A DNA stretch of 64,000 nucleotides from Isoetes taiwanensis. Lineage: Eukaryota; Streptophyta; Lycopodiopsida; Isoetales; Isoetaceae. The position numbers and the translations under genes are program-made. This document shows, piece after piece, positions 17,545 through 59,610 of this stretch. The notes below the pieces were generated by a model. The model ran no database searches. It worked only from the letters and a program-made list of their open reading frames with translations, and was not told where the DNA came from. The stretch spans positions 1,807,900-1,871,899 of the forward strand of contig JAJEKV010000104.1 in the NCBI GenBank assembly GCA_021234155.1, read 5' to 3'. Every line of letters starts with the position of its first letter. Within the stretch, counting starts at the first letter, position 1.

Positions 17545-20727
<3,183 letters not shown>

Positions 20728-20771
20728 TTTGAAATGAAATATGATATTAATACGTCTGCAGACCACCAGGT

Positions 20772-23700: not shown

Positions 23701-24119
23701 ATATCCTGCTCTAATTCAAAGAAAGGATCATCCATGTCCAATATCCCTTTGTTATAAACTGGTGATTCACGTGGCGGAAAATAACATCCAGCAATATATA
23801 TCTTTCCCTTCTGTCCCACAATCTCCACCCAAATATGCTGTTTAGATCCAAAACCTTGTACCAGCTTTACCAAGTGCTTCATCTCATGCCTTACAAAACA
23901 CGCAATCCCTCCATGACCTTTCAGCCTCCAATGCTTAAAATTCCAAACAGAATGTACTAAATCAAAACCTGCTATTTCAGCTAAACCTCGCTCTTCATTC
24001 TCACATGTTTCCAGAAAAAATATTAAATCTGCCCTGCTCAAGACATCCCCCATCATCTGTACCTTCGTTGAATTTAAACTGTTTATGTTCCAGCAGACAA
24101 TCCTGGTGGTGTCGAATTC
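20772..24119 (-). CDS. LINE ORF2: endonuclease, reverse transcriptase, zinc knuckle
   Basis: Makes new LINE copies by nicking target DNA and reverse-transcribing its own RNA at the nick. Open for 1115 codons. The EEP endonuclease spans residues 1-250, with catalytic Asn in VCWNINSLN, Glu in LETCENEE, GDFNGRTGG and SDHAPI. RT spans about 480-760, with NYRMIMVSN, QAGFRPKKSTID, the YADD catalytic pair in LLLYADDIVIL, and VGVKQGCPMSP. A C-terminal CCHC-type knuckle (CQLCDLGEVEDEGHVLLRC) precedes an acidic tail. The first ATG is at 24056, but the conserved WN motif lies upstream of it, so I extend the frame to the codon after the ORF1 stop. ORF1 and ORF2 are in the same frame, separated by one TAG. 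All catalytic motifs are intact. Confidence 0.9.
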   Translation of the reverse strand, partial: EFDTTRIVCWNINSLNSTKVQMMGDVLSRADLIFFLETCENEERGLAEIAGFDLVHSVWNFKHWRLKGHGGIACFVRHEMKHLVKLVQGFGSKQHIWVEIVGQKGKIYIAGCYFPPRESPVYNKGILDMDDPFFELEQDILKLLPHGETLVLGDFNGRTGGKQAAIASTDGEPLWLEMIDTDELVQSGWSRVSADKIRWPTPQGNHLLNMCTGLDLVIYNGISRYPMSGEYTCRGASVVDLVLARPQFVDQIVSLEIGDERSESDHAPIFLSLQVGKYMVLEEVAGHCPKIVMRFHKAEQYEATCEALAGGIEWPDNAESISAKLSTLVLDAAKKCYVSQRKLKGLPCNSWFDMECKMKRREFKAARGEARKIAKREYMRVVKSKKKKFLFEKHKQMVSELVTEPKRFWNRIKPRLKHFSVLGREELLGYIAHLYHIPGVDDSQVFCTGAGGWEFTLEDIQGGLKALSNGKAADNMGLVAEMFKWAGPVVHEVLWKLLNAVLQEGFPHSWQVNRVIPLHKAGDEKDPNNYRMIMVSNLFAKLFATIVNKKISGWAEESNVRAVGQAGFRPKKSTIDHLVTLRAMIDSVTGTRRPLYALFVDFTKAFDTVHRGNLWERMEVLGIPAELRSAVKMLYEKVLVQLSFPYSGAGSDEVSSNVGVKQGCPMSPTLFGLFIDQLENWMGRYGGDGMALGGYVLKLLLYADDIVILSRTVEGMQRHLDALSFFCEDKGMKVNLSKTKLIVFGALKVGHLRFIYRGEQVDIVDAYKYLGIQVDKTPSWNQAVEQRVNSGLKALYSMQRRCGKAEIWNFELKRMLYKVLVQTVVLYGCEVWAPGLAEDTWKKVEKIQKKFFRSELGVKAQTPYDMMLAECGMMPLEAEALCRTLEYVCKVQTDMQEGSLPRVAMEVTNQKGWYADVQAWVRKWGLEFNDLCVYRGDIRTWVQEQVIRKSWCIPEVKKTYYKECINPLLQQPRYLSESISLKYRHAICRMRLSSHRLGVEVGRWSNIPHELRVCQLCDLGEVEDEGHVLLRCPQYSGLRHKHHISCEDLVTFFGLSGNMIGNFIMEMIERRDKLLKKAGDEEIEEEEWERSDAFLSEDALEDIFYNVHCTVTNVS

Positions 24120-25233
24120 CTATGCCTCACCCTGCTCCACTAAAACTTTTCCACGACGCCAAAATGCTCGCTTTCCACTCTGTCTGGCTTCTTTAAATAT
24201 TTGTAACTGCTCTTTATACTCCTGGAATTGCAACTTAGTGAAATCATCATTTATCCATACCTTTTTGCCTTTCAATAGAATCTTCTTCTTCAGCACATTG
24301 ATTTTATCTTCCCTTGAGCGGAACTTTGCAATAATGTGGCGGTCCCTGTCGGTCTGCTTTCCAACTCGGAATGCCTCAGTGATGCCAGCTTCAGTGATTT
24401 GTAATTCCTGTCTACAAAAGGACGATACTATATCAGCTGTCTTCTCACCGGCTTCTTCAGGAAGTCCAATGATTCTAAGATTTAGGGCTTTTTCCTTCCT
24501 TTCTTGCTCCTCCATGAAATCTGCTAACTGATTTTTTATTTCCAGCATATCATTGCCTCCCCTAGAAGTATCGTTGGGCTGTTCCAGTGGAGACACAAAT
24601 CCCTGCTTAAACACTTCGAACTCCTCTCTCATTTCTTGTTTGAACAAGGCTACTTCTTGGATCATCCCGCTCTTACATTCTTCCATTTCTCTCTGAACTT
24701 GGGCAAGAAGAAATGATTTAAGGTCATTCATCATACCTTGAACTGAGAACTCCATAGCCGTTTTCATTGCTGCTATTGAATGCTCCATTGATAATCGCAT
24801 CTGCCCTACAGCCAGAAGAAGGTCTTCCTTTGTAACAGCCCCTGTATTCTGCTCAATGGGTCTCCAGACTGATGCCACAGATCCAACATCATAAACCATG
24901 ACAGGTGCTGCCGCCCCCAAAACATCCCCTGCTACAGAGATAGATGCATCCACGCCCCCTGTTACAGAGGTCGAAATGGGTGCAACTGCCTCCCCGACCC
25001 TAACTGGCCCTGTTCCCAAATTTGCCGCAGCCTCTGGCCCTGATACCCCCGGAATCACAGTCCGACCTATTCCCAAAAGATGCAGTCGTTTTTCCTTGTT
25101 TTTTATTCTTGTGGGCCTGCCTGGCTGCTGTGACAGCACCCCCCGACCCTGCAGGGAGCGCCTTGGTAGCTGCCTTCGACCCCACACCACCATCAGAGTT
25201 CCCATCAGCTTTCTTTGCCCTAGTAGAGTGCGC

Positions 25234-25236
<3 letters not shown>
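24120..25236 (-). CDS. LINE ORF1 (L1 ORF1p-like RNA-binding protein)
   Basis: Probably coats the LINE RNA as a trimer. A Thr/Pro/Val/Ala-rich N-terminal part comes first. A coiled coil (about residues 165-260: repeated EME/KQE heptads after MEHSIAAMKTAMEF) follows. Then comes an RRM-like block (NLRIIGLPEEAGEKT, FRVGKQTDRDRHII) and a C-terminal domain (LKGKKVWINDDFT). The natural start is the ATG at 25234-25236 (MAHSTRAKKADG), immediately after a CT tract. That frame reads well for about 48 residues, then the coding potential moves to the other frame at A-runs near 25090-25110, so this copy probably carries a one-base indel. The TAG at 24120-24122 ends it. Confidence 0.75.
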
Positions 25237-25655
<419 letters not shown>

Positions 25656-36608: not shown

Positions 36609-38672
36609 ATGATAAGAGCCAGCCTTCTACATCATCTACTCCTACCTCATGGGACAGCCACTTCAACTGCAATAACTTGGCCTTCTGCTACTCGTATGCC
36701 TGAGGAACTGAAGTTCAACCCTGCTGAGGAAAACAAGCTTGCAGAACAGACAGCAAAAAAGCTCGAAGAGTTTAAAAATTTTTATCCAATGGGGGTGAAT
36801 TGGTTCACAAAAATAAGTATCTTCAACTGCGAGACAGCTCCAGCAACAATGACGCACAGATTCCGATCTAACGATCACGTGCAAACGCTAATAAGGAGCT
36901 TCAAGAAGTGCCCTACAGAGGTTCTCACTCCGGCAGATGTTGTGCCTTTTGACCACATCACAAAGTAAGTACTTTGTATACATACATGAGTTTTATGTAT
37001 TAAAATACTAAATTACTTTCTTTCGCAGGAAAATAATTACTTGGTCGAGGCCTAAGGAGCTTGACAACAAAAAATTCTACACTATTTCTGGAAACCACAG
37101 CATATTTGTTGCTCAGATCCTTTGCCCTGTGATGGGCAGCGTCGAACAACGCCTGGAGTTTGCTAAAGTTTATGCCAAAAGAAGAATGTGGGTGCTCAAT
37201 GGAAACCTGTCCAACAGTGAGTACATCCAATTATCTCTTCAATGCAACAACATAATTGTAGACACTGTGTATAGAGAGCCACTAGTGGAGAAGCTTCAAC
37301 AATTGCGTAATCAACACAAGGCTTTCGGTTGCCCTCCACAAGGACCAACGGGCAAAATAGTAACATCAGCTTGGAAGGTAAGCCTATTCACTTTTTGCTG
37401 AAGCAGATCGCGACCACGATCCTAACCAGCATTTCTTTTCAGGATTTTGTTGAAGTGGCGACCACTACATTGAAGGTCAAAGAACTTAAAGACGAAAAGC
37501 AGTTTCTGTTTATGCACGACGAACCATGGGCAAAGTTCATGGAGGTTGTAAATAAGTGGGCAGGACGGAAGCTATCAGATGATCATGGGGAACTGCCAGA
37601 AAAGCCAACAAAAGATTTTTTCAATAAAATATTTCTTGTTACAAGAAGGAAGGAAGCACTTTGTACTTGTTTCATCTACTTGTATCTTCGGGGTAGAGCA
37701 TTAGGTGGTATCATGTCTTCAGTTGGTCACAAGATTTCCGGCTTTGAATGGTTTTTTGGAGCTATTTCTGTTTTCTGTTTTCTGTTCAGAATTGCAATAT
37801 AAGATCCATTAAGGGGTCACTACATGTTAAAATACTTTCTATCTCGCCTATTTATGGAGCCATTTTGGAATAAGGTTTGTACCAATTTTATTATATAAAT
37901 AAAAATCCATCTAGCCTTCAGGTACCTTTGTGGCATGAATAATGCGGAGGTAGCCCAACTTATGGACGAGATTCTGGTGGGAAAGACATTTTTGAAGGTG
38001 CAACCTGGATATACCGGCAGGCCTGACTGCAAGCAGAGGACCTTAGACCTCAGAACTCTGACCTTGATGCACCGTGAGGTGCTATCATATGCCAATTGCT
38101 TGTTAGATAAACAATACAGCAGCATGGAGGAGCTTGTGGCACTCTTCCCTGAGCTCAATGAACAGAGGCTACTTGATATAGCATGTATGGATTTTGATTA
38201 TATCAAGGCCAACTATAACAAGGATCACGTCCAGGGAAATCTTCTGAGTGTTTTTTTAGAAGCTATTTTAGCTATACTCAAACCAGATGAAGCAAGCAAA
38301 CTGAAAGAAAAGAGAAACATTGTGCAAGCAGTAACAAAATCTGGTATTCTTGTGAGGGGGCAAGTAACAGAAAATGCTACAATGGCTTTTATTGACATGC
38401 GCAGTTTCAACACTGTCTGGGAAGTTAAAAAGTACACGAATCTATTCAACAGGATTGCAAGTATGACAACTGCAAAGGTGTATCACATCGTCATGTTCTT
38501 GAGATCGGTCCACTTGCCAAACTGCTTGTACAGCCAAAGTCAGATCGAGGGGAGTTCACATATCTCCACGGGTGCTTATGAAGAACAGGGCTGGGTTAGC
38601 AAGAAAACGGTTAAGGAATTTCAGTATTACGTCAGCCATGTAACGATCAATAGAAGTGAGGCGCGTATCTAG
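36609..38672 (+). pseudogene. ParB/Srx-like protein gene, copy 1 (spliced, 3'-truncated)
   Basis: Four exon pieces. One ends at 36964 (SNDHVQTLIRSF... DVVPFDHIT). Intron 36965-37028 (GTAAGT to TTCGCAG). Exon 37029-37377. Intron 37378-37442 (GTAAGC to TTTTCAG). Exon from 37443 (FVEVATTTLKV...). An intron with an unplaced donor ends at 37921, and the last exon is 37922-38672. The second exon carries YTISGNHSIFVAQIL, like the G-x-H/R-x-x-A motif of ParB and sulfiredoxin-fold proteins. The exons align in order with the minus-strand gene at 47336-51901. This copy lacks that gene's N-terminal and lysine-rich exons and its C-terminal methyltransferase-like part, and starts 140 bp after a LINE tail. 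No nonsense codon is seen in the aligned exons. The ParB assignment rests on a short motif and overall pattern only. Confidence 0.55.
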
Positions 38673-44255: not shown

Positions 44256-45095
44256 TCAGACACCCATGAAATTGACGAGACGGAGGAGGCCGTAAGTGAG
44301 GAGCATAGCGAGGAGGCCGCCAGAGGTGACGCGGAGGGAGGCGCGGGGGATAGGGGCGCCGCCGAGTTTAGCACCAATGGCACCAAAGGAAGCAAGGCCA
44401 AGGGAAGAGGCAAAAACAACACAAGCCAAACGGGTGGTATAATGGGTAACAAAAGCGCCAGAAAGCAAAGGCAAGGCGCCACCCATGCAAAATGCAAACG
44501 CAGATGCTGCAGCGGCCTGGCCCGGATTCGAGAGCTCGTCTACGTCGATCCCGAGCTCGTCCCTTGCATGGGCTCTGATCGGATCAATCCGGCTCAATTC
44601 CTCCGCCACCCGCTTCGCCAGATCGTAATTCAAGCCCCTTTCCACGTAAATCTGTGCCAATTCTTCCAATTCTCGAGCTGCTGCTTCCGGCCCCTTCTCG
44701 TGCTCTTCCCTTTCCTTTTTCAAATCCGCCATCTCTGTATCCCTCTGTGAATACACCGATACGTACTCCCCAATCGCCATGCTGCAGGCTCCTGCTACCA
44801 ATCCTGCTATTCCCGACACAATTGACGCCCTTAAATCGTACCTTACTGCGCTCACTCCGATTATTAGCGATGCTATTGACACTAGCCCGTCGTTTGCCCC
44901 CAAAATTAGTGCCCGCAGCCATGGCGACCTCTGATTATAGTGCTTGTGCCCATCTGGATGTAGTGGGTCGTCTGAATCTGTCATTTCCGGCCCCCCTGCC
45001 TCTTCTTCTGCTGGATAGGTGTTTGATTCGGCGCTCTGGCGGAAATTTGTCATCTGGGCGGTTTGAAATTGGGTTTTTAGGGTCGGAATTGTCAT
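44256..45095 (-). CDS. VIT/CCC1-family iron/manganese transporter
   Basis: Predicted to load Fe2+ or Mn2+ into the vacuole or another compartment by cation/H+ exchange. The 279-residue frame is intact and intronless. A variable acidic N-terminus precedes the first membrane helix (RALILGANDGLVSIASLIIGV, the CCC1 signature) and helix 2 (IVSGIAGLVAGACSMAIGEYVSV). A Glu-rich cytosolic loop follows (about residues 130-195, AARELEELAQIYVERGL, ARDELGID), where VITs bind metal, and then three more helices. The loop is the long kind seen in bacterial VIT/CCC1 proteins and true VITs. The short plant VTL/nodulin-21 type lacks most of it. I chose the ATG at 45093-45095; the frame is open further up, and a later Met (MTDSDDP, about residue 37) is also possible. 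Confidence 0.9.
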   Translation of the reverse strand: MTIPTLKTQFQTAQMTNFRQSAESNTYPAEEEAGGPEMTDSDDPLHPDGHKHYNQRSPWLRALILGANDGLVSIASLIIGVSAVRYDLRASIVSGIAGLVAGACSMAIGEYVSVYSQRDTEMADLKKEREEHEKGPEAAARELEELAQIYVERGLNYDLAKRVAEELSRIDPIRAHARDELGIDVDELSNPGQAAAASAFAFCMGGALPLLSGAFVTHYTTRLACVVFASSLGLASFGAIGAKLGGAPIPRASLRVTSGGLLAMLLTYGLLRLVNFMGV

Positions 45096-45458
45096 CTTTG
45101 AAGCCGTAAAAACCAGTTTTTGGAAGCCCAATTCATACGATTCTTTGGAAAGGTCATGAATTTGTCATAGACATAGACCGATTGGCCCCCAAAACTGAAT
45201 CCATTTTCAGTTTTGAGACGAAATTGTGACCAATGATGAGAAACAGAGGAATAATTGACGATTTGAATACGCAATGAGATGAATTCATGAGCGAAAAGAA
45301 AAAGATTTGCTCCAGATCAGGTGAAAGTGGGTATAGAGAGCAGCGATTACGGCAATTTAATGGCGGAATGGAGCCGAAACAGAAGATTTAGTCCCGCGAT
45401 GGACAGATTTGGAGAAGTAGAGAGGGAAAATGCGCAGGAATTGAAGAGGGATGAGGAA

Positions 45459-45499: not shown

Positions 45500-47335
45500 T
45501 CTGTGAATAAGCAGCCGTCCAGATTTGGTCGTGCGTTGGGTGCGTGTCGACTTTTGAGCATGAATCGTGGGCGTATGCCACACGCTTACGCTTCTACCCG
45601 GGAATCTGGGATCCGCCAAGTTCCATTTTTGGAAACAAAAAATGTCATTTCTAATTACCATTTTTTAGCAGGGTTGCCTTGAAATCTAGGCTATACACGT
45701 CTACACCCAGGGTTGCCTCGAAATCTAGGCTTTACACTTGTATGCCCATGTCAGCACACCTCGACCTCGACATGTCCGTTACTTCGACCTCGTTCCTTCT
45801 GCCTTCACCGTTGTTCTCTTCTATTTCACTATAGCCAAGCCAAGCCAAGCTTTTCGAGATCTACCAAGCTTTCTTGGTGGCCATAGCTAAAACTTGGAAG
45901 CTTCCCGCATCCTCTGAAGCTTTTTGCATTTAGCCTTGCAGATAATGTTGCACAAGCAGGTTACCTTGTTTTGGGCGATCCTTTCAAGCCTTTTGACCGG
46001 AACTCCCTTTTCCACTTTTCCAGCTTGCGTCAAGAACCATGAACCAATAAGTCATCATCTCCTCCAAAAAAACTTCTCCTTCTTATATCATATAAGTCAC
46101 AGAATTGAACAGAACGTTATGGCCTTTTTTTCAAATCTTTGACTCAAATGCAGCGAAGGTTGTTGCCTTGCTCGCCAGAGAACCGTGTGTGAAGGCTCAG
46201 TCCTATTGCACCCATCCTTTGCAACCACATATGACATAAAAGGTGAATATTTTTTTAGATCTGTAAGCTATAAGATCCCTTTCTCTACATCTGTGGAATG
46301 GTTGCTTCTGTAAAAAAGAATCTTTGCCAGTGTTGTGCATGAATGATGTCGTGGGATTAATCTTCTGAAGTGTCTAGTTGGATATAGATGTCATGTTACC
46401 TGGGCACGTAGCGACAAATTTACTTTGATGAAGTAGTATTTTTATATATATCTATATATATGTGCAGTATCCATCTCATTCCATTCCAATGCAGCCTTCA
46501 ATACACTTTATCATCTGGTAAAAGCATTTGACAGCTTATGGTCATTTGCTTCAACATATATCATGCACGACAGTTGCATACTCTTGTAGGCATTTGATTA
46601 TTAGAACTTGTCCATGTTTGTGTTATGCAGGCATAAAGCTCATGGATTTTGTCAACTTTGTCTAGTTCAGTTTATGATAAAACTGACTGACTATTTCATA
46701 AGTTCTAAATATTGTATAAGATTGTTTTTATGCATTTAAAACTGGATTTAATTATTAAAGAAGCAAACTTTTGAAATACTCTTTGGATTATGCATTTTGT
46801 AGGACTAACTGAGAGAAAGCTTATTTATGATATGCAGAAATATGAACATCAGTAGCAATGTTGACAACAGAAATTGACCAATCTACACCTCCATCGGTAG
46901 TTGAGGGCTTCAGATCAATACTTACAGCATCTCGTTCAGAGATAAGCCTGCTCTTCTTACAAGCCCTTCTAATGTGGAAGGACAGTGTAAAAGTTGTGGT
47001 TATTTCTGCAGAAAGCACAATTTCATTAAAATGAGAAATTTCGTGATTCCAATTAGGAACGAAAATCCTTTTTAGTCCATTTTATGCCAATTTTTTGAGC
47101 AATTATGGCGCCGTTTAGAAAAAATATGCCTCTAAAACGTCATTTATTGGCGCCATTAAAAATACTAACAGTGCATATAAAGAAGCTAAAGAAACACAAC
47201 ATCACAAAATTAGTTAAAAATTCTAAATTCATAGATTTGCATATCAAAAAATTTGCCACAACAGGCAAGGACTCGAAAGAGAGAGTCTGTTCACAAAAGT
47301 ATTATTGTATAATTTAAATTACAATCACATAAAAT
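45500..47335. other. Intergenic sequence, no supported gene
   Basis: Upstream of the VIT gene and downstream of the ParB-like pseudogene. It contains a duplicated phrase (GGGTTGCCTNGAAATCTAGGCT at about 45671 and 45711). Two GGCGCC sites lie at 47105-47155, related to the palindromes further right. No gene seen. Confidence 0.4.
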
Positions 47336-48969
47336 TCAGGGTTCCGCATCAGGATCAGGTTCCGCATCAGGATCAGGTTCCGTATTGCCAGGGCCATGGC
47401 TAGAAGAAGCAACTATAGGATCTCCCTAAAAGCTCTCGAACGCTGTGGCAGTGAAATTGGGATCACTAAGAAAGTCCAGATCGAATTGTGTGTTCTTGAT
47501 CACATCATAGTCCACATCGGGTGGAGCTTCGGGCATCTCTGGATTAGGTGGATCTACAAATTTTCTTCAACAACATCACCTTTTGTCTCCGTAGGGAACT
47601 AGCCGCGATGATAGGATTCAAGAGGGCGGTCAAGCCTATCAAGAATCCCCTTAGGCACTCCCCGCTAACCGGGGTCACTTTCGAACACAATGCAAAATCT
47701 CTTTATTCATCAATGAAGCCCGGCCAAAAGAACCACGGGAGAAGTAATCAAACACCCCCGTTCTGGCGGTACCATTTTCTCAGACGAGGTAGGAGCATGT
47801 GGCGGGGGCCCACCTGGTTCTCATGATTATGTCCCTGGCAAGCCTTGCCACCAGTACTGAATCTGGCGTTGCGAGCTTTCCCCATAGCCTCGGTCTCCCC
47901 CTCTTCGTCTTCTTCGTTTTGAGGGCACGTGAACCGGTGGCGCTTCTTGAGGATGATCGTTGAAGGGAAATTTGAAGTCAATTTCATCGGCGTGATGACT
48001 GCAGTGGTCTGAATTTTTTGTGGCGTACACTAGTGCATGGACCTCCCGAACTCCCCGGGCGGCGGATTTTTGTATTCGTCCTCATACGTGCCAATAAAAA
48101 CTCTGGATCTGGAATCCAGATCATCCAACACAGATGAAATCAAAAAGTTATGCTCTGGCCTTGCAAAGACCACTATCCAGAAAGAATCAGCTGTGGTGTT
48201 CTTTACAGCTTAAATTAGATAGTATGGTTTTGTCCCACATTGGAAATATGCCTCTAGTGTCCAAGGCAATCAAGGATACTGGTACAGGAGTGCATCTAAC
48301 TTGCCCCCCCGCCGTGCATGGGTTCAACTTCGAACGGAAGTCTTCAAGATCCTCTCTCGCAAGACAAAGATTTGCGTATGAATCTTGCCAAGGCTGGTGG
48401 CACGTTACCGAAAACGCCTTCCTTGCCCACTCCAGTTTCAACCCACTTACTATGCAAGGTGGCCATGGAAATGAGGTCGGTATCCTCGAAGCCCGGCACG
48501 GCAGCACAGAGATCAGTGAAGGATTTGAACTTCCTCGGAAAATTATCCTTCACATATTCAAAAATCTCCTTCTTCAAGAAAGATATGGATCTTAGTGTCT
48601 TTGCCCTTGTCTTGAAGAAGTGCTTACCTGTATAATCATTGGTGACCTTGACGAAGGTCTTCTCATCCAGCACTTCCTGGAACAGAACCCGACAGTCTTC
48701 GTAGTCGAGCCCCCTCATGCACCTCAGGTAGGTCCGATCAAGTAGTAGTCGATTCTTTTGCCCGATTCTGGGTAATAGTTTGTCCCTTGTTGTCTTTTAG
48801 CTTGCCAGATTTCCACAAGTTCCATAGGGACATGAATAACTGGAAAATATCCTCTGGCATGAAGACCCACTGGTTGAAATCTTTTGGATGCTTACCACGC
48901 ATGGTAACCTCAGCCAAAGCCAGATAACGCTGGAAACAACAAGAAGTTAGCCTTGAACATTTAATGAGC

Positions 48970-49078
48970 AAATGGCGCCGCGGCGCCATTAAATGAAGAA
49001 ATGGCGCCGCGGCGCCATTTAATGAGCAAATGGCGCCATGGCGCCATTTCCTCACTAAATGGCGCCGCGGCGCCATTT
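48970..49078. repeat. Tandem array of four perfect palindromes, 29-bp period
   Basis: Each unit is a 22-bp site: AAATGGCGC, a central CGCG or CATG, then GCGCCATTT. Starts are at 48970, 48999, 49028 and 49057, exactly 29 bp apart. The centres are CGCG, CGCG, CATG, CGCG. The 7-bp spacers vary. The first site ends ATTA instead of ATTT. It lies in an intron of the ParB-like gene. Confidence 0.95.
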
Positions 49079-50937
49079 GCTAATCTTGCCAACAATTACA
49101 ATATGTACCTTGTATGGTTCTGAGCGTGACTGCCCGCGTCCCGATGGATCAGGCTTCCCGCATAGAGCATATTGCTGCCGCAGGTGGGTTATGTTATCAA
49201 TGAAGGGCTCTTTGAAAATAGTCTTCGCAGTGATATCATTGACTTCACAACTGAGCTGCAGGCATTCCTGTTCGTTGACTGTGCCAGATAACACTCGGCA
49301 ATTCCGTTGAAGATAAATCTTTGACATTTGCTCTTGGGACTTTGCTGTGCCGAGTCTTCTACATACAAGCTGAGCAGCCATAACTGAATGATTGCCATTC
49401 ACTATATAATAGTGCATCCCCATGAGGTCATCCTCGGTTTTCCAAGCGACCAGTTTGTTTGTGAGGGGATTGAATGGAATCACATCAGCGGGAGTGAATA
49501 CTGGATGTGGGTCTCTCTGAAAGGACTCCACTAACGTTTTGACGTGCTCCATATTCCTTGGTCTAGATGTCAGATTTGCTGGCCCTTGATATAGTTTGAA
49601 CACGTCTATTTTTTTTTATAAATGTGACACCCGAGGGAAACAGATGCCTTGATCGTAAATTTTTTGCGGTGTATTCTCTCTAGTCTTTTCCTCTTCCTCG
49701 ACCTTTCCACCTTAAGATTTGCGGGCACCTCTAGCAAGTCTTGAGCTATTCTTAATGTGAGCTTCTTTAGCTCGGCTTCTTAATGGGGACCCTTTTTGGC
49801 GGTGTGTCCCGGGGATCCCAGCTATGCCTTGGGCTCGGAGGTTCACCACCACTTCTAGGACTTCCAGCAGGACTTGGAGTCCGAGTCGCTCTCCTTTGTT
49901 TTTTAGGTGTCCTCTCCTTCTCAGAGGTCTCCAGCCTGTGCTTCTTCTTCTTTTTCCCATCCATTTCCTCTGTCTCCATTTCCTTTCCCTCCTTTTCCTG
50001 TCTCGCCTTTCCTTCCTTCTGCCCCTTGCCTTCCCTATCCTTTTCTTTCCTTTCCCTTTTCTTTTCCTTCTTTTCCTTCGTTTCTTTCTCTTCCTTCTCT
50101 TCCTTTTCCTTCGCTTGCTTCTTTGCCTTCTTTTCCTTATCTGGATCTTTGTGATCCTTTCTCTTAACTTTCCTCTTGCCCGCCGCCTTTCCTTCCTCAG
50201 TTTCCTGGACAACATCCTCAGTAGAAGATGAGGAGTCTTTGTCGGCTGCAGGTGTCTCCTTAGTTTGTCTTGTCTTCTTCTTGCTAACTGTTTTTAGCCA
50301 GGCTGTGTCCACAATGGCGGGTAGTTTCTGCTGGGCTAATGCCTTGACAACGAATGAAGGCGAGTTTTTCGACTCGTTCATCCGATTGCGAAGAATCATA
50401 AAGCCCCTCAAGATTTCTTGTGAGCCTTTGATGTCAGCTTCTTCAAAGCTGTTGTTGTCGGCAAGCGGCCTCGATGCCTTGCTTCTTCGCCGAACCAGCT
50501 ACATTTGCAATGCTAGCAGACATTACAGTGGGATCATAAAACTTCCAGTCCACATAGTAGACAATTATTCTCTGCTTCAAAGTATCCTCACAGACCACCC
50601 GGATCCAATCCTCATGACGCTCTTGGCAACCATCTTCATGTGGACCAAGATACACGGCCGGGTAAATTCCAAATTGTTTAAGTCCTGTCTCCCTTATAAG
50701 GAGGCAGAGCTCTCTTCTGCAGTCTCCTTTCGAGCCTGTAGCAGTAGAGGGGCTCACCCGCATTACTTCCATGCACCAGTACCTGTCTATCAGCATGATA
50801 GTCTGGTCGGATTGAAATTGTGTTTCCGCACGCAACATAGCTGCAACAAAGGGGCATCAGTAAATGGTTTTAACAAGCAGGCAGACAATCAGTTGTGGTA
50901 GGCAAATGGCGTCGTGGCGCCATTTGCATCTGAGTCC

Positions 50938-51440
50938 AGTGCATAAGCACATGGAGGCGGTTCGTATGCCTTTCCCTGCGTTTGGTCGCAGAGGCCTCCA
51001 CCCAGTCCAAACCCCTCCCCTTCGCAATATTCGAGGAAGATGGTTCGAAGGAGAGTGGCTCGGACTGGGTGGAGGCACCTGCGACTCGTAGGAGAGTGCA
51101 CTACAGAACGCAACACAACGAGGCGAGCTACCTCAATGCTGATATATATGTGTGTCTCTGTCGTCTGCTTAATCGTCTGGTTTTAACAAGCAGGCAGACC
51201 AGATGACTAGGCAAATGGCGCCATGGCGCATCCGAGTTCAGTGCATAAGCAAATGGAAGCAGTTCGAATGCATTTCCCTGCGTTTGGTCGCAGAGGCCTC
51301 CACCCAGTCCGAGCCCCTCCCCTTCCAATGGTCGCGGAAGATGGTTGGAAGGAGAGTGGCTCTGACTGGGTCGAGGCACCTGCAATTTGTAGGAGAATAC
51401 ATATGCGAATGACTCCATTAGTGTTAATGGACTGGACGCA
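50938..51440. repeat. Two 301-bp-spaced copies with internal inverted repeats
   Basis: TGCATAAGCA starts matching segments at 50940 and 51241. Each contains GCCTCCACCCAGTCC followed about 55 bp later by its near-complement GACTGGGTGGAGGC, so each can form a hairpin. It lies in the large first intron of the ParB-like gene. Confidence 0.8.
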
Positions 51441-51446
51441 GATAAA

Positions 51447-51802
51447 AATGGCGCCATGGCGCCATTTGCCAACAACAAGTCCCAAATGTATGCTAATAGA
51501 CATCAAATAGCGCCATGGCGCCATTTGCCAACAACAAGGCCCTATGGTAAGCTAATAGACATCAAATGGCGCCATGGCGCCATTTGCCAACAACAAAGCC
51601 CTATGGTAAGCTAATAGACATCAAATGGCGCCATGGCGCCATTTGGTAGCAACAAGACCCTAGAGTAAGCTACCAGGCATCCTAAAGTAAGCTAAGACTC
51701 CTAAAGTGCACTCAGGCATCCAAATGGCGCCATGGCCATTTGTCAACTATAAGACCCTAAAGTGGTTATCAGGCATCTAAATAGCACGGTGGCGCCATTT
51801 AG
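51447..51802. repeat. Palindrome array, 58-59-bp period
   Basis: Intact or near-intact AAATGGCGC-CATG-GCGCCATTT sites start at 51447, 51505 (one substitution), 51564 and 51623. Decayed ones lie at 51722 and 51779. The spacer shares GCCAACAACAA and CTAATAGACATC. It is intronic, same gene as the 29-bp array. Confidence 0.95.
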
Positions 51803-51901
51803 CCCAAACAAAACAATGCAAGTAGATGACATACCTGTCCCTTGAGGTGCGCTAGCCGCTGTCTCCACATTCTGAGGAGCTCCAGAATTGTCGATTTCCA
51901 T

Positions 51902-52901
51902 TTCGAGCGCCTTGAATTTGGTCCGAAAACTGGTGTGTATCTAGATGTGTTGAGGCGCTGAACTGTGGGGAAATGGCGCCAGAAAATACTAAAAACAAAG
52001 GACTCAGAAGGGTTGCTTTAGGCGCTGGGCGCTGGCGGCTAAGGTCGAGGCGCTAGGAGCTGGAATCGAAAACGAAAAAACTGAATGAGAAGCTTCAGAA
52101 AAACAATTCGGCATAACAAACTTTGGGCGCCGCCTCATTGCACCCAAAGCGGCCAACTAGGGCCCGTGGCTGTCCAGGCGCCCATGCCCGTCCAGCCGCC
52201 CATGCCCGCCCATGCCCGTGGCGGTCCAGGCGCCCATGCCCGCCCAGCCGCCCATGCCCGCCCATGCCCGTGGCGGTCCAGGTGCCCATGTCCGCCCATG
52301 CACGTGGCAGTCCAGGCGCCCATGCCCGCCACAATTTGAATTTTGAAATTCGAATATTTCCCGCCCTAACGCCCGCCCGCCCAAATTTGAACATAAAATT
52401 CAAAATTCCCGCCCGCCCGCAATTAACATAAAAGTCAAAATTCCCGCCCGTAAATTGAAATTTGACTGCCACCTGTCTAAATTTGAATTGTCCGCTTTTA
52501 AAATTGTACTTTGCATTTAAAGCTCCCTCTTTGTCGCCGTGCTCCCATTTAATGCGACCATGCCACGACGCAGAGGTTTTTAGTAATACGGTTCGGTAGC
52601 TTCGAATCCGCTGTTAAGTCTCATTACCGCTTCGCATAAAGGCCGCTTCTTTTCTTAGGCCTAGGGCGAAACTTTGCAAAGGCGCATGCGCGTCTTGTCA
52701 GGCGCTTTCTTCTTGGCGCTCACAGAAATCCCAGGTGATTCTTGGCGCTTTCTTCTTGGCGAATTCTTGGCACTTTCTTCTTGGCGAATCCTTCTTGGCG
52801 CTTTCTTCTTGGCGAACTCTTCTTGGCGCATTCTTTTGCGAATATATCTGCTGGGATCAGCTTGATTTTCCTGTTCCATCTACTGCTCCAGGACATACCA
52901 C
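51902..52901. promoter_or_regulatory. Divergent intergenic region with GC-rich repeats
   Basis: One kilobase between two divergent start codons (51901 minus, 52902 plus), so it is probably a shared promoter region. It contains tandem-like GCCCATGCCCG/GTGGCGGTCCAGG repeats (52170-52330) and repeated TTCCCGCC boxes (52358, 52407, 52441). TTCTTCTTGGCG repeats, about seven, lie at 52730-52850 just upstream of the plus gene. TTTCCCGC-like boxes resemble E2F sites; this is inference. Confidence 0.45.
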
Positions 52902-55900
52902 TATGGATCTATCTAATATCAAGTAAGTCCACTGTTTCTGGTATGAATTCTGTTCTATTGCTGCCATGTGTATAGCGTGTTCAAATGCTGATATGAATGC
53001 TGCTAGGAAACTAAGAACCTTGGTTTCAATTGCAAAGTTGGCATGGGGTGCCCATGTTATGCATGCCTGCTCTTATTGACACATATACAGCAATGGGAGC
53101 AAGAATGCATAACATAGGCACCTCGTGTAGATTTTGTGATGGAGCTAAGCCAAATCGGCCATGTGACCAACTTGGATCAAATGTCGTCAGGGCGCCATTC
53201 TATTCCAAATACACACTTAAAATGGTGTGTTGGTCTTAATGGCGCCATAGCGCCATTCGGTTGAAAATGGTGCACGGCTGAAATGTAAATTTGGAGCCAA
53301 ATGGAGCCATGGCGCCATTTGGTCGAAATGGTGCACTTGGATCAAATGGCGCCATGGCGCCATTTGTTCCAAATTCACACCTATGAATGTGCCATAGGTG
53401 TGAATTTGGATCAAATGGTGCCATTTGATCCAAGTGCACCGTTTCGATCAAATGGCGCCATTTGGCTCCAAATTTAGACCAAAATTTATTCTTTTGTACT
53501 AAATGGCGCCATTTTCGCTTATTTATTGCTTATTTTTCGTCTATTTCATATGTTCTAAAAAGTGTCGCCTTGCTTGAATGAAACAGGTTCAATTTTCCCC
53601 TGTACAACCTATTCGTCGGAAGGACAATTGTTGCCCGGGGACATATTTTGAATAGAACCACTCTTCATGGGAAGGAAATAGATCCTTCAAATGTAGCTAT
53701 TGAGGTCACGGAGTCCGTGATCCCATCGACCGAGCTTCCAGTCCCCTGCGAAGGGGCAGATAACATTGGTGAAGCAGTAGGCACATTCAAGAGGGATGTA
53801 AAACAAAATGAGTGCCCCTCAAGTGAAGATACGTCTTCGAGATCCCTCAATTTGCCCTCTTCAGCAGAGGATTCATCTAGTAGTACACCATCCGTCAAGA
53901 GTCCGGGACATCGGTTTCCATCGCTCAATTGTGGTGAACCAAGCAACACAAAGAACAAATGAAGAAGACGAAATAGTAGAGGAGATTGGAGGTCATGAGA
54001 ATCTAGCTGCCCGTCTTGGTCTCAGGTTGTTTAAGCCTGAAGATGAGACAGTCTACTACTCCAGAACAGATCTACTAGGTTTTCCATGCTACATTCTTCA
54101 TTCCTGCATTGGATCTAAATATTCGAGGCTTAATATAGTCTTTAGTGATCCTCGTGGATGCTATAGGCGATGAGTTCTTGGGTGTATCAAAGGTCGAGCT
54201 TTCAGTGGGTACCATAATAGATCCAACGGGAAACCAAAATATCAAGTCATGTCATGCTTGTGCTGAGAGGCCTATAGCTAACAGTCTAGTAACCTGGGAG
54301 ACCCGTGATGTTTTGCTTCATGATGGTAGGACAGTTTCACAACATTTACAAGCTCGAAATGCTCTCGAACAGATGACTTAGAAGTTGAGTGCTTGGAAGC
54401 CGATGTTGAGAAGCAATTCAAGAGGAAAAGGAAATATACATATGTGAAGAGGGTCAGGAGGGAACCAAAGGGGGATAGCAAGGAGGAGAGGATGTGCGCT
54501 TCCAAGTCAATCAAGAGTGCTCTAAAATCAACATGCTGCAAGGACGAATGTGTCAAAAAACTGAGCCGAGAGCAAGTATGTGCCTTAAGAAAAGAATTTT
54601 ATTCTCAATCAAGCAGTGCCAGGATTACGCTTGTTTTTGATGTGTTGAGTGTAACTTATACAGGCGTCGGTAAAGTAGTGGTCTCCGGAGTGGAGTCTTT
54701 GTCAATTTGCATGGCGCGTGGCTTTAGGAGTTGCTCGATCCACGTTTTATAGTTGGAGGAAGAGGTTTCGAGTTAGGTGGAAAACGGGCGAGCATGGTAA
54801 TCTGAGTGCTCTAAGAAGCCTAGATCTGTGACACTAGCTACAGAAAGTGTGCTTGATACCTTCATTAGTGAGAATGCGGAGAGCATTCCACATAGAAGCA
54901 AAAAAGGAAAGGATGATATAAGGGAGAATGTTCGCAAACTTCCTTCCATTCTTAATAAGAAGAGCATACATAAGGAAGTGGGTGCCGTGGTGGAAGAATT
55001 GACAGAACGAGTGTAACCTTGCCCTCTTTTTAATATTTGGAAGAAGGAGTTTCCAGACGTCGATAGCAAAAATACAAAGATTCTCCAAGTGTAACATATG
55101 TGTATTCATCAAGCGTAAATTGGAAAGAACAAAAGATACAAGGGAGAGGCGTAACCTTTCAATTCAACGGCCGGGCACATATGTTGGAACAACGTTCTGT
55201 AGGAGTCAATATTGGCATTGGCGTGCATTATCACATCGTTAAGCGAAAGTCACCTTTGCATAATACATGATAAGATGGATCAGGTCAAAACACTCACACC
55301 AAGAAGTCACCATCTCGCAAAGTCTCTTTGGAGAGGAGATCGCTTGAAGAGCAGCTTGACAGGAGCATTGACACATGGTCATGGTGGACGGGCTTATGGC
55401 CATTTCTCTCTTGATCTTTGGAAGGATGACTCAAACTTTCATGTTGGATCACTTTCTAGGATCCTGAGTTGCCGGAAGAAGACAAGTGTGGTGATCTGTG
55501 TGGAAGCAGAACTACAGATTGCAAATTGATGCAAGCCCTAAAAGATACTCGACCACTGCAGCATAAGCTAGCGCAGACACAAGAGAAGATGCCTTCATCT
55601 TCTAGTGCCAACTTAGAAGGCTTTAATCCTCTTCCTCGAAATCTCTACTTACAGTTGGATAATGTATCGGGTCAAAATAAAAATAGATATGTGTTCTCCT
55701 ACCTCTCTTATTTGACATGGCTTAAGGTATTCGATGAGATTCAGGTTGGCTTCATGATGGTTGGGCATACTCATGACGATATTGATGCATTGTTTGGGAA
55801 CTTTTCGACGTTAATGAGTTCATCGGATGCTCTAACTTTGCCTGAGTTGCTTTACTTGTTTAGCAAGTGCAATGCAAAGTCTCCTGTTCCATATTTTGTG

Positions 55901-56829
55901 GATGAAGTTCCAGATTGGAAAGGCTTTGTCAAGGGATATATCCCTGATAAAGGCCAACGTCTAACAGGCCATACCGACCCATTGCTATTCTGATTTAAAA
56001 TGGATGGGAAATGGCCCATTATGCAATATAAGATGCCCAACCCATAAAGAGTGGATTCCAGAAAAAGGAATAAGAATGTGGAAGGAGGATGAAAATGGTG
56101 AGCCAACGTTACCAACGGGGGTGCCTAAAAATATCCCTCCAAGGAAGACATTGAAAGATCTCCCTGGCCTGGCAGACAGCATCAGCAAGTACATAGCATT
56201 ATGGAATTCCTTCTGCAAAAATCAAGAAGATAGTGTGTTTGCACGACAGTACAAAGCAACTATGGATTACTGGAACGAGATTCTTGTGTGTTTGGAAGAT
56301 GTATCTCGGGGCGACCTCAAAATGATAACTTTTGGTTGCGTACAAGGCAAGAACCTCTACAAGCTGCATTTACTCCGTGAGGTCGATGAAGCCGCTGTGC
56401 TTGTAAGACCTTTGCCTACGTGATTGTGGGCCAGCCAGATGGGCGGTGTTGCCTATGGATGAGTTCGATCCTCATGCACATGTTACGAAAGGTATGTTTG
56501 TTTTAGTCCGACCTGGAGACGATGAAACTCCAACGTGGTTGGGCTTTACAGAAGAAGATGCCATCCTTGATCAAGAGTCTACCAATTATGGTCACATTTA
56601 TGTATCATGGTAGATGCCTGTTGGTCGTGACTATACAGGTTGCTTAACTAAACGTTGGCGACCCAATCCATCAGATCCATCAAGGTATGAGAAGTTAGAT
56701 ACCATACATTATGCATGGGATGCAAATGGCAAAAGACCGAAGACTGTTCAGATTCCAAAATACATTGTTGACATGTGGGGGGACATAGCATTAGCTAAAA
56801 GCTCTCAATCTCAGTCATGTTCTCGATAA
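52902..56829 (+). pseudogene. DUF8039/DUF7869-like transposon protein gene (broken)
   Basis: Exon 1 (52902-52921, MDLSNIK) ends in a GTAAGT donor. The intron ends GAAACAG at about 53586 and exon 2 begins FNFPLYNLFVGRTIVARGH, resembling a DUF8039 domain (to about 53800). After frame changes come KSTCCKDECVKKLSREQ (near 54530), SRSTFYSWRKRF-like text (54740), IIHDKMDQVKTLTPR (55260), and LTGALTHGHGGRAYGHFS (55350). The best-conserved part is LQLDNVSGQNKNRYVFSYL and GFMMVGHTHDDIDALFGNF (55650-55800), typical of DUF7869 proteins, which I take as transposase-like. The C-terminus has GMFVLVRPGDDETPTWLGF and MPVGRDYTG. Breaks include TAG at 56611-56613 (TGG to TAG at a Trp kept in the copy at 14490) and frameshifts near 53950, 54160, 54720 and 55500. 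DNA-transposition function is inferred. Confidence 0.6.
53190..53510. repeat. GGCGCC palindromes, decayed cluster
   Basis: One perfect site at 53345-53366 and about six partial ones (for example 53239, 53298, 53410, 53449, 53500), irregularly spaced. They sit in the first intron of the DUF7869-like gene, showing the same motif in introns of both divergent genes. Confidence 0.85.
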
Positions 56830-57045
56830 TTATGTATGTAATTTCTTTTGCTATAATACTTAAGCATTTTGGACAATTAATACATTGTCGATACATCAAT
56901 TAGCTTTCATTATGCTTATACTAACATTCTTACATCTTTTATAATAGGTGTTTAATACATATCATTACACCTGATGCACACATTATTGATGGCATACATA
57001 TAATTTAGATGCACATATTATTGATGGCATTATAGAGTCGGTGAT

Positions 57046-57291
57046 TCACTCATCTTCAATCCCTGCTAACGTGATCGCATTCAGCTCATAGGCACGACGT
57101 TCAGGAAGCCAAAGAAGATGGATCACAACACGAGTAAGGCCAGGGCAATGACACTCAGGACCATCAGCTTTGGATTGCAAGTAGGGATCCAGCTTAACTG
57201 TTTTATGTATGCACCGAACAATATCATTGTAGCTCATGGAGCAAAGAATGGTCTCAAACCGATCTTCATACTCATAGATATTATAAGCCAT
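57046..57291 (-). CDS. Small hypothetical protein, 81 residues
   Basis: From the ATG at 57289-57291 (MAYNIYEYEDRFE) to a stop at 57046. The peptide includes CSMSYNDIVRCIHKTV, two Cys-X-His-like groups (ECHCPGL) and VIHLLWLPERRAYEL. Its composition looks coding, and it is divergent from the frame at 57956 with repeat-rich sequence between. I do not recognise a family. It may be another gene of the same element. Confidence 0.35.
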   Translation of the reverse strand: MAYNIYEYEDRFETILCSMSYNDIVRCIHKTVKLDPYLQSKADGPECHCPGLTRVVIHLLWLPERRAYELNAITLAGIEDE

Positions 57292-57345
57292 GGGAGATGA
57301 ATGACTTCTACCACCGAATGGAGCTGCTTTTATAGTCGTTGTAGA

Positions 57346-57880
57346 ATTATTGGTATAATACTTCAGCATTATTGGTATTATACGTGAGCATTATTGGTAT
57401 TATACCTCAGCATTATTGGTATTATACTTCAACATTATTGGTATTATACTTCAACATTATTGGATTCGTAGCTATAAATTCTTTTACCTTGCTTTCACTT
57501 CTCACTTTTCACCTTGCTACTTGATCTTGATCCTTGCTTCTTGCTCCTTCATCTTCCTTGTTCCTTGATCTTCTTGCTACTTGATCCTTGTTCCATGATC
57601 TTCTTGCTACTTGATCTTCCTTGTTCATTGCTTTGCTACAGTTGATCTTGATCCTTGCTCCTTGATCTTCTTGCTACTTGATCTTGTTCCTTGCTCTTGA
57701 TCTTGCTACTTGATCTTGTTCCTTGCTACTTGATCTTGATCCTTGCTTCTTGCTCCTTGATCTTCCTTGTTCCTTGATCTTCTTGCTACTTGATCTTCCT
57801 TGTTCATTGCATCTTGCTACTTGATCTTGATCCTTGTTCCTTGCTACTTCATTCCCGTGCTCCTTGCTACTTGATCTTGT
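57346..57880. repeat. 23-bp ATTATTGGTATTATAC repeats and CTTGATC-rich tract
   Basis: About five and a half copies of a unit containing CATTATTGGTATTATAC at 57346-57455. A long low-complexity stretch of TTGCTACTTGATCTT and TCCTTG words follows at 57490-57880. Confidence 0.85.
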
Positions 57881-57955
57881 TGCTTGCTCTTGAACTTGCT
57901 ATTTGCTCGCTCGTGTGTTCCTTGCTCCGTCGGTGATCCTTGCTTGCTTTTGCAA

Positions 57956-58574
57956 ATGATTGGACCCAATCCTCCCTGGGCTACTCCAGAAGGCCTGCAA
58001 GCATGCCCCAGGCATTCTGTGCGGCCTGGAATGGATGAGCTATGGGACCATTTCTTGGAGTGGAGGTTGCGCCACAGTCCCACCAAGGAGCTTACAATGG
58101 AGTTGATCAACTTCATTCGAGGCGATTTGATTGTGGTCATGAGCCACCGATGGAAATTAATCCATCCGAATGTTATAGGAGACTTGCAATGAGGGGAATT
58201 CTTGAACCCCCTCCTTATCACGGGCGAGATGCTACAAAGAATTGAGGCCTCTTCTTCGTGTTGGATATTTAGCACACTCTCTGGATGCATACATATCAGA
58301 GTTCATTCATGAAATTTCTAAGGGACAGATGTATGGCCTTATTAGGGTGTACTACAATGAGTACAACGGTTTTGTGGAGTTGGGTCCGCTCTTCTTCCGT
58401 GAGTATCATCCTGTGGAATTACTTTTTCTAATGACTAGGTACCCCATATGGTGGGAAGAATCAGGCTGGGATATGCGTGAGCTCTTGAATCCTAACCCAG
58501 ATGCGTGGGTTAGACCTCGCAGGCCAAGGAAAGGGGAAGGGGAAGGGGTTAGGAACCTGGGGGAAGGTTACTAG
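57956..58574 (+). pseudogene. Hypothetical coding relic in three frames
   Basis: From ATG 57956 (MIGPNPPWATPEGLQ, MDELWDHFLEWRLRHSPTKE). The natural reading moves to a second frame near 58150 (MEINPSECYRRLAMRGILEPPPYHG) and to a third near 58240 (LLRVGYLAHSLDAYISEFIHEI, IRVYYNEYNGFVELGPLFF). It ends Arg/Lys/Gly-rich at 58574. Either two small unrecognised introns or, more likely, two indels. No known domain. It lies downstream of, and on the same strand as, the DUF7869-like gene. Confidence 0.4.
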
Positions 58575-58674
58575 GGACATACATAGTTCATACTTCGGTC
58601 TCTATTGTGTTTGGAAGTTGGTATATGATACCATGTTATTATGTTCTCTAAATATTCATGTATGTATGATAAAC

Positions 58675-58815
58675 GGGTACTGCACGTGTATACAACCCCT
58701 GCATAAGGTCTATGATACAGGGTACTGTACATGTGTATACAACCCCTGCATAAGGTCTATGATACAGGGTACTGTACACGTGTATACAACCCCTGCATAA
58801 GGTCTATACAACCCC
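58675..58815. repeat. Tandem repeat, three units of 45-47 bp
   Basis: Units beginning GGGTACTG and containing ACAACCCCTGCATAAGG start at 58675, 58720 and 58767. A partial unit follows. Confidence 0.9.
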
Positions 58816-58819
58816 CATA

Positions 58820-59610
58820 ATAAAAAAATTCCAGTTTACTAAAAATTTTCCCATTATAATGAAATTGTGCTTCAGATGAATAGATTTGTAAAAATTTACT
58901 ATGGAGTTGCTCATGGATGGGCTGCCCAGTATGATGTAACTAGTGAAAAAGCAGTTGCAAAGATCATCAAGACATGTTGAGATGGTTCTGGAAGTACCTG
59001 AAATGAAGGTTCATGGGTTGCAAAAGTTTTATAGCTCTACTAACACCATCTTTATCGTTCCAAATTTTGGGTTTGCTTCATCACTAACATCTCACTACAC
59101 TGTGCTCCACTAGTTCATGTCATACAAGTGGCTTGATTTTTAAGTTCTATTCTAGCGAGTAAGTAAGTATACAGGGTGGGTGGATATCGTTCCCCTATTA
59201 TGCCCCATTGGGTTGTGTATGTAATAAACATTTATTTTTAAAGATATAATCCACAGAGTTGATGCAAAGCCTTGGTTTTTGAAACTTGCTTTCCGAAGAG
59301 TCTAGTTGTACTACACTAGACTCTATGTAAACAATGAAAAGAATGTGGAATCTCTCTGAGACCATTATGAGGGATGTTGATTGATATGTATGACCACTTG
59401 TAGGCATGTAACATGTAGCATTTCCCCTATGAAATACATGGTCAAATGGTATGTAAAAAGCACATTCCACATGTTGCATCTTCATTCATACGGTATATTT
59501 GGTTTGTCATTTTGATCTTTGGTAGTGTTTGTACATTGTTACTCTATCAACCTTTCTAGGCTTGCATCAAGTTGCCACTTGCATGAAACATGTGTTGCAT
59601 AGACGCCATG
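58820..59610. other. Intergenic sequence, no supported gene
   Basis: AT-rich with short frames, nothing recognised. Confidence 0.4.

Follow-up and report, generated by a model that had tools for sequence, protein, structure and literature searches.

ParB-like proteins have already been described in DNA transposons of algae. Sola1-1_Ec32, a large DNA transposon of the brown alga Ectocarpus, carries on the opposite strand a gene whose product combines a ParB-like domain with an N4/N6 DNA methyltransferase domain; its describers also point to similar proteins in green and red algae (PMC12477816). They suggest that ParB-like accessory proteins of this kind act by binding the transposon that encodes them and modifying it; no named target and no binding sites were noticed in that account, and the string 'palindrom' does not occur in its main text. 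Here, a stretch of 64,000 nucleotides from Isoetes taiwanensis (contig JAJEKV010000104.1), referred to as the window, was analyzed and compared with these systems.

The palindrome-bearing element of the window is an 11.86-kb DNA transposon (47013-58872), which extends past the interval of 47336-53510 originally given for it. The left terminal inverted repeat (47013-47041, plus strand) begins with AAGCACAATTTCATTAAAATG and matches the right one (58844-58872, minus strand) at 26 of 29 positions; this 29-bp repeat occurs at these two places in the window and nowhere else in it. The ends are flanked by the target site duplication CAGA (47009-47012 and 58873-58876), and the duplication was 4 bp long in all three copies for which both ends could be found by pattern (CAGA, TTTT, and TATA). 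With its inverted ends and a target duplication of fixed length, the element is a TIR DNA transposon. Sola1 transposons produce a 4-bp target site duplication, and the superfamily is perhaps Sola1. Two divergent genes could be assigned, a broken ParB-like gene on the minus strand (47426-51901; several exons with borders set by eye, frameshifts, and a lysine-rich linker) and a frameshifted DUF7869 transposase-like gene on the plus strand (52903-56830), whose DUF7869 matches lie inside 55203-55990. The PF25273 match had an E-value of 6.4e-33 and 114.4 bits (cut-off 26), and a second match (6.2e-5) was under the cut-off. A third short gene on the plus strand (57957-58577) is broken and has a relative in locus L012. 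DUF7869 is very abundant in this genome (9902 first-look candidates, of which 150 were scored), and no mention of the name was found in the literature searched. The element is a DUF7869 DNA transposon with two or more genes, among them the ParB-like gene. A lone selfish gene could be ruled out, since the ParB-like gene sits within a TIR element alongside the transposase-like gene.

The ParB-like domain with its GNHS motif was located at 49109-49615 on the minus strand, and YYIVNGNHSVMAAQL is encoded in the open frame 49055-49615 of the same strand. A second, diverged ParB-like gene (family 2) occurs at 36696-38672 on the plus strand, with 25-36% identity by stretch, and encodes YTISGNHSIFVAQIL within 37012-37401 (+); the family 1 and family 2 proteins are about 30% identical. 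Both peptides of the spliced gene named in the preliminary description are therefore encoded, but the copy with YYIVNGNHSVMAAQL is broken by frameshifts. The likeness to ParB proposed there is borne out by profile comparison, which gave a score of 31.9 with family 4 placed first (P 1.1e-4) and 24.3 with family 2 first and family 4 included (P 0.0033), neither reached by any of 200 shuffles. Omitting family 4, which is joined to the other families by tblastn (E 2e-5 with the related-clade copy L040), the score of 21.7 was marginal, being reached by 0 of 200 shuffles with the best shuffle at 20.7. The similarity to ParB_N spans the domain in the correct register. On the other side, curated HMMs including PF02195 (ParB_N / ParB-CTPase fold) did not detect the domain, and the arginine of GxxR is absent, the motif being GNHS in families 1-3 and GTHS in family 4. 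GxxR is the phosphate-binding motif of the ParB fold, named Box II in PMC12704722. A genome-wide PF02195 search gave no match with two candidates scored, which is a weak test because it was run exon by exon and picked up no sulfiredoxin gene either. The predicted structure had a pLDDT of 38.5, and a fold search at that quality gave no usable match. Sulfiredoxin carries its catalytic cysteine in a GCHR motif. The suggested sulfiredoxin link could be discarded, since this cysteine is replaced by N or T.

A methyltransferase-like motif was placed by eye at the C-terminal end of the ParB-like gene (near 47690-47760). Pfam gave no hit to a methyltransferase (PF01555) in this part of the protein. 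The first profile comparison aligned motif I with motif I; the score was matched by 26 of 120 shuffles, with the best local match lying elsewhere, and by 29 of 200. The DPPY catalytic motif is missing, with D-x-R-x at its presumed place (placed by eye). No homologue of the ParB-like piece from outside this genome was found in the protein collection, and viral contigs contained neither a homologue of the ParB-like or DUF7869 piece nor the palindrome.

The window contains 26 copies of the half-site AAATGGCGC, compared with an expectation of 0.47 from shuffles. All 26 copies lie within 48970-53514, largely as the preliminary description had stated for the palindromes, but two partial sites with GGCGCC at 47107 and 47149 (47105-47160, degenerate and subterminal) fall outside the interval given there. 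The claim of at least ten perfect palindromes in and beside the gene was confirmed by a count of ten. Seven of them are 22-24 bp long (48999, 49028, 49057, 51446, 51563, 51622, and 53343), and the others measure 20 bp (48971), 16 bp (53449), and 14 bp (53501). Perfect 22-bp copies thus exist, but the sites are better described as dyads with a 4-bp centre, AAATGGCGC-N4-GCGCCATTT, a word common to family 1 and its related clade, which 14 window sites fit at no more than 4 mismatches of 18. Four palindromes at 29-bp spacing occupy the intron after the ParB-like exon (48970-49078), intron 1 of that gene holds six sites (50904-51800, with a 59-bp tandem unit at 51446-51681), and the transposase-like gene has four full sites and two shorter palindromes in its first intron (53179-53514; intron inferred by eye). 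None of the 14 sites is exonic, although exonic sequence, its borders drawn partly by eye, accounts for 61% of the element.

The genome of Isoetes taiwanensis (1.658 Gb) contains 957 copies of the exact 22-mer of family 1 and none of its reversed control. All 18 clusters listed from this search belong to family 1. The ParB-like gene is present in 14 of them, and the other four have the family-1 terminal repeat and sites without the gene. Two non-autonomous copies, whose likeness to autonomous ones is mainly confined to the termini and a single short piece, retain full sites (four in L013 and five in L020). The palindromes therefore follow the element in this genome sample, and the earlier proposal of a selfish element holds in the form of a TIR transposon. 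The expected association between palindrome and gene family is seen in those 14 of 18 listed clusters, but the word itself differs between families.

In family 2, the word is ATCGC-N4-GCGAT, located in the ParB-like gene within the intron that also holds sites in family 1. One of its forms, ATCGCGGCCGCGAT, has 961 genome copies (control 0), and a family-2 gene or part of it was found at all eight places taken (138-836 aa of the 860-aa reference). The gene copy of the window at 36.6 kb carries no family-1 palindromes and has kept just a remnant of the family-2 site in the matching intron, after the ParB-like exon (ATCGCGACCACGAT, 37407-37420). The match of this remnant is by itself within chance and was identified by intron alignment; this copy is excluded from the family-2 site count. 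The intron site was lost in L025 and has diverged in L027. Among the DUF7869 copies picked by HMM, L050 and L051 combine a divergent ParB-like gene with repeats of GGTATGAATTCATACC, and L052 has repeats of AAGTGTATTCCGGAATACACTT, in a sequence that did not extend to a ParB-like domain. These loci add two more DUF7869 families, each with a repeated palindrome unlike those of families 1 and 2. Words 2, 4, and 5 were discovered in L023, L050, and L052, loci that are also included in their counts; the second copy for word 4 is L051 only, and word 5 has no second copy. Among copies picked by gene and not by site, seven of seven bear the word of their own clade (L049 of family 1, L032-L035 of family 2, and L039 and L040 of the related clade). 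A single word following the entire ParB-like gene family could be ruled out, as the word changes with the clade.

The sites number 1 to 14 per locus examined and are placed between the divergent genes, in introns, and in family 1 near one end. It is probable that they serve this large DUF7869 transposon group as cis-acting binding sites with two-fold symmetry, bound by an element protein, most likely the ParB-like one. Points against this reading are the failure of curated HMMs to detect the domain, the single site of L040, the lost or diverged intron sites of L025 and L027, and the absence of any site from the right half of the transposon in the window. The dyads would be bound by dimers of this protein, which may load at the sites and then coat, mark, or regulate the DNA of its own element. 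Possible roles include self-recognition, autoregulation of the divergent promoter, and protection from silencing. Since the families use different words, each may mark its own DNA; a more specific and tentative proposal, for which the case is close to balanced, is that each ParB-like protein loads solely on its own dyad word, as a repeatedly re-specified ParB-parS-like self-marking in plant transposons.

Alternatively, the sites could be bound by the DUF7869 transposase, or by the product of the third gene, for autoregulation or for recognition within the element or near its ends, while the ParB-like protein acts otherwise. We regard this as rather unlikely. The transposase-like gene is also present in 14 of the 18 listed loci, and because the two genes go together, co-variation does not tell which product is the binder. 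The transposase-like gene holds four of the 14 window sites in an intron, family 1 has conserved sites roughly 95 and 137 bp away from the left end (L008, L009, and L015, and in degenerate form the window element), and the N-termini of the L050 and L052 transposases gave weak winged-helix-like hits under the cut-off. Against a transposase binder, 10 of the 14 sites are within ParB-like gene introns, and neither the window element nor L012 has a site close to its right end.

Binding by a host factor, such as a transcription factor or insulator protein, or a role as intronic RNA hairpins would fit the intronic and promoter-proximal positions, and both appear very unlikely. Across the 38 loci examined, four different words occur in one genome, each limited to its own clade, and no word was found within an element of another family. 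Moreover, the site centre is not self-complementary in six of six sites of L039 and L040 (the latter with a single site), so a perfect hairpin is not the conserved feature. Local duplication is evident from the tandem spacings of 29, 34, and 59 bp, but an origin of the palindromes as mutational by-products, through tandem slippage or tiny mobile palindromes settled in the elements, is highly improbable, since half-sites are conserved around variable centres at a fixed 4-bp gap (CGC-gap-GCG over gaps of 0-12 peaks at gap 4, with 150 vs 4-53 in family 1, 83 vs 3-16 in family 2, and 8 vs 0-3 in L039), the intron position is identical in family 1, the related clade, and family 2 despite the low protein identity, and neither word 1 nor word 2 is present in the 41 kb that remain of the window when both elements are set aside.

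Binding by the ParB-like protein would work much as ParB loads at parS, without chromosome partition. ParB-like methyltransferase genes have precedents in algal transposons (PMC12477816); no description of family-specific palindromes in elements of this kind was found in the literature searched, as far as its texts were accessible. With four words, two of them having more than 950 exact copies each, and the matching gene clades, the self-binding proposal becomes directly testable, and the same set offers a natural series for shifts in protein-DNA specificity. If true, a bacterial DNA-loading principle enters plant transposon biology, and a eukaryotic mobile element would possess a private DNA address for regulation, anti-silencing, or chemical marking. 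As in bacterial and phage ParB-parS systems, a ParB_N-like domain is accompanied by palindromic sites in and beside its gene, here as putative binding sites; in contrast to these systems, the GxxR arginine is missing, no HTH was identified, and the dyads are 4-bp-centred, intronic, and part of a nuclear transposon. The phage ParB-methylase fusion Javan316 (PF02195 and PF01555) joins ParB_N to a methyltransferase. With Sola1-1_Ec32, as far as described in its report, the element shares the layout of a large DNA transposon with an opposite-strand ParB-like gene, whereas here the host is a vascular plant, several families are present, the candidate methyltransferase domain is motif-like, and each family carries its own dyads.

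The palindromes lie inside a DNA transposon, 47013–58872, which substantiates the earlier proposal of a selfish element. The transposon was bounded by a 29-bp terminal inverted repeat (47013–47041 with 58844–58872; 26/29 match, E 1e-4) and flanked on both sides by the duplication CAGA. Related copies with both ends found carried the target duplications TTTT and TATA (L013 and L020), giving a 4-bp duplication in 3/3 copies. A frameshifted ParB-like gene was located on the minus strand, with exons between 51901 and 47426, and a DUF7869 transposase-like gene (E 6.4e-33) was divergent from it on the plus strand. A short, broken third gene (57957–58577) consisted of pieces without a Pfam match and had a relative of up to 64% identity in locus L012. 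The half-site AAATGGCGC occurred 26 times in the window against 0.47 expected, every copy within 48970–53514, so the palindromes were indeed absent elsewhere in the window; outside the element, GGCGCC was found in the window only at 26103, 44355 and 44475. The preliminary description counted at least ten long perfect palindromes; ten perfect ones were present, but only seven measured 22–24 bp and three measured 14–20 bp. At up to 4 mismatches, 14 sites were detected in the element, 10 in introns of the ParB-like gene and 4 in intron 1 of the transposase-like gene, with none in exons, which made up 61% of the element (borders partly by eye).

Several other features were observed. Intron 1 of the ParB-like gene held a duplicated 230-bp unit (50865–51095 and 51178–51396, 85% identity), the first copy containing a 40-bp inverted repeat (GTCGCAGAGGCCTCCACCCAGTCC...), and a GC-rich tandem repeat of GCCCATGCCCGCC type lay between the divergent genes (52128–52330). 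By eye, LINE-type ORFs with endonuclease and reverse transcriptase were present at 17752–25394 and elsewhere, one of 1115 aa, and the ORF at 44256–45164 resembled plant vacuolar iron transporter-like proteins.

A search of the whole genome (1,658,258,908 bases, 1110 contigs) returned 957 exact matches to the 22-mer and 0 for the reversed control. All 18 clusters among the matches listed were taken, these being in contig order, with gene content no criterion; the ParB-like gene was present in 14/18 and the DUF7869 gene in 14/18. DUF7869 remnants remained in L006 (47 aa) and L020 (32 aa), and no DUF7869 gene was found in L009 and L019 within the stretch fetched. The four clusters lacking the ParB-like gene (L006, L013, L018, L020) all carried the terminal repeat of family 1, the window element and its relatives, and the sites in the sample were confined to elements. 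L013 and L020, each a 3-kb element, shared with autonomous copies mainly their two ends (147 bp at the start and 140 bp at the end) and about 165 bp mid-element, with one further 75-bp stretch in L020. Sites were retained in such gene-less copies (15 half-site matches and 4 full sites in L013; 10 and 5 in L020). In this sample the palindrome tracks the gene in family 1 and its related clade; family-2 genes use another word.

The second ParB-like gene in the window (36696–38672; 25–36% identical by stretch to the first), which belongs to family 2, lacked the family-1 palindrome (word 1). A genome search with this gene gave 2759 candidates and 150 scored matches. L023, chosen by gene, contained repeats of ATCGCGGCCGCGAT (word 2), which had 961 exact genome matches (control 0). 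Eight of the first eleven ATCGCGGCCGCGAT clusters were sampled, and 8/8 held a family-2 gene, whole or in part; the three passed over were C1 and C6, which lay close to genes listed before, and one on C81 close to the start of a contig. L032–L035, also chosen by gene, carried word 2 in 4/4. The intron after the ParB-like exon contained word 2 or a clear remnant in 10/12 family-2 copies aligned (L024 and L028 left out); L025 had no word 2 and L027 a diverged form. This intron position was kept, and the corresponding intron in family 1 and in the related clade L039/L040 held AAATGGCGC-type sites.

The site is a dyad. L039 was 44% identical to family 1 over a long match, and its sites had conserved arms and four variable central bases; the centre was not self-complementary in 6/6 sites counted in L039 and L040. 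Self-complementary centres numbered 93/145 in family 1 and 21/60 in family 2, where the arms were ATCGC and GCGAT. Counting CGC-gap-GCG at gaps 0–12 revealed a peak at gap 4, with 150 in family 1 (other gaps 4–53), 83 in family 2 (3–16) and 8 in L039 (0–3), against 0 in L040 and 3 in the rest of the window (0–3). L040 had one related site only, in the intron after the ParB-like exon, with one base changed.

DUF7869 elements form a very large transposon group in this genome (9902 first-look candidates, 150 scored), and DUF7869 had no match in 14 control genomes. Three further copies, L050, L051 and L052, were picked solely on HMM rank and open frame. The close relatives L050 and L051 (family 4) each had a divergent ParB-like gene with the motif GGTHS followed by LTDEEAKVLAISHNVDN; GGTATGAATTCATACC (word 4; up to 2 mismatches) matched six times in either locus. 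L052 had five matches to AAGTGTATTCCGGAATACACTT (word 5; up to 3 mismatches) between divergent open frames, in a stretch that stops short of the ParB-like domain. Weak RFX winged-helix-like hits were seen in transposase N-terminal frames of L050 (363–1844, E 0.013) and L052 (1–1809, E 0.39).

Across 38 loci, excluding the window's own family-2 copy (remnant only) and the overlapping L001–L004, the words were family-specific. Word 1 occurred in 20/20 family-1 loci (18 selected for holding it, and the window chosen since palindromes had been noticed there), 2/2 related-clade loci and 0/16 others. Word 2 occurred in 13/13 family-2 loci (8 selected for the word) and 0/25 others, word 4 in 2/2 family-4 loci and 1/36 others, and word 5 in 1/1 (L052) and 0/37 others; these counts include the discovery loci L023, L050 and L052, and the independent cases are L049, L032–L035, L039, L040 and L051. 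The single exception, L006, has two family-4-like GGTATAAATTTATACC palindromes at 6353 and 6412, outside its family-1 element, which ends at 5628.

Comparing the family profiles with ten ParB_N domains from phages indicated a ParB-like domain. Families 1–3 scored 21.7 (P 0.009), against 20.7 for the highest of 200 column shuffles, which is marginal by itself. With family 4 included, the score was 31.9 when that family was placed first (P 1.1e-4) and 24.3 when family 2 was (P 0.0033), and family 4 alone scored 32.8 (P 5e-5), each reached by 0/200 shuffles; family 4 was linked to the other families by tblastn with L040 (E 2e-5, 31% over 70 residues). The alignment placed GNHS/GTHS opposite GHTR, then LTD(E/K)E...N opposite LSEEQ...N. 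The ParB link proposed earlier thus gains from profile similarity, but Pfam, NCBIfam, PHROGs and PDB sequence searches did not detect the domain, PF02195 had no match across the genome at E 1e-3 (exon-by-exon search, 2 candidates), and the GxxR arginine is replaced by serine. The C-terminal end (CVLDFFSAGTASRVALMQGK) was similar to motif I of N6/N4 methyltransferases, with shuffles reaching the profile score, and lacked DPPY.

The sites are probably bound by an element-encoded protein acting as a dimer. The transposase is a possible binder; the ParB-like protein is our first choice on three grounds, namely the placement of the sites within and about its gene, its similarity to a DNA-loading fold and the self-binding suggested by its algal cousins. 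The sites may serve in regulation, marking, anti-silencing or transposition.

Among known relatives, the relevant sections of the ParB fold survey give sulfiredoxin as the commonest eukaryotic form (PMC12704722), and neither these nor those of PMC12477816 describe sites in such transposons. Phage fusions join ParB_N to an N6/N4 methyltransferase, whereas here the C-terminal end is only motif-I-like. In the Ectocarpus Sola1 transposon, as outlined in PMC12477816, an opposite-strand gene combines ParB-like and methyltransferase parts; its authors propose self-binding and self-marking and point to comparable cases in green and red algae.
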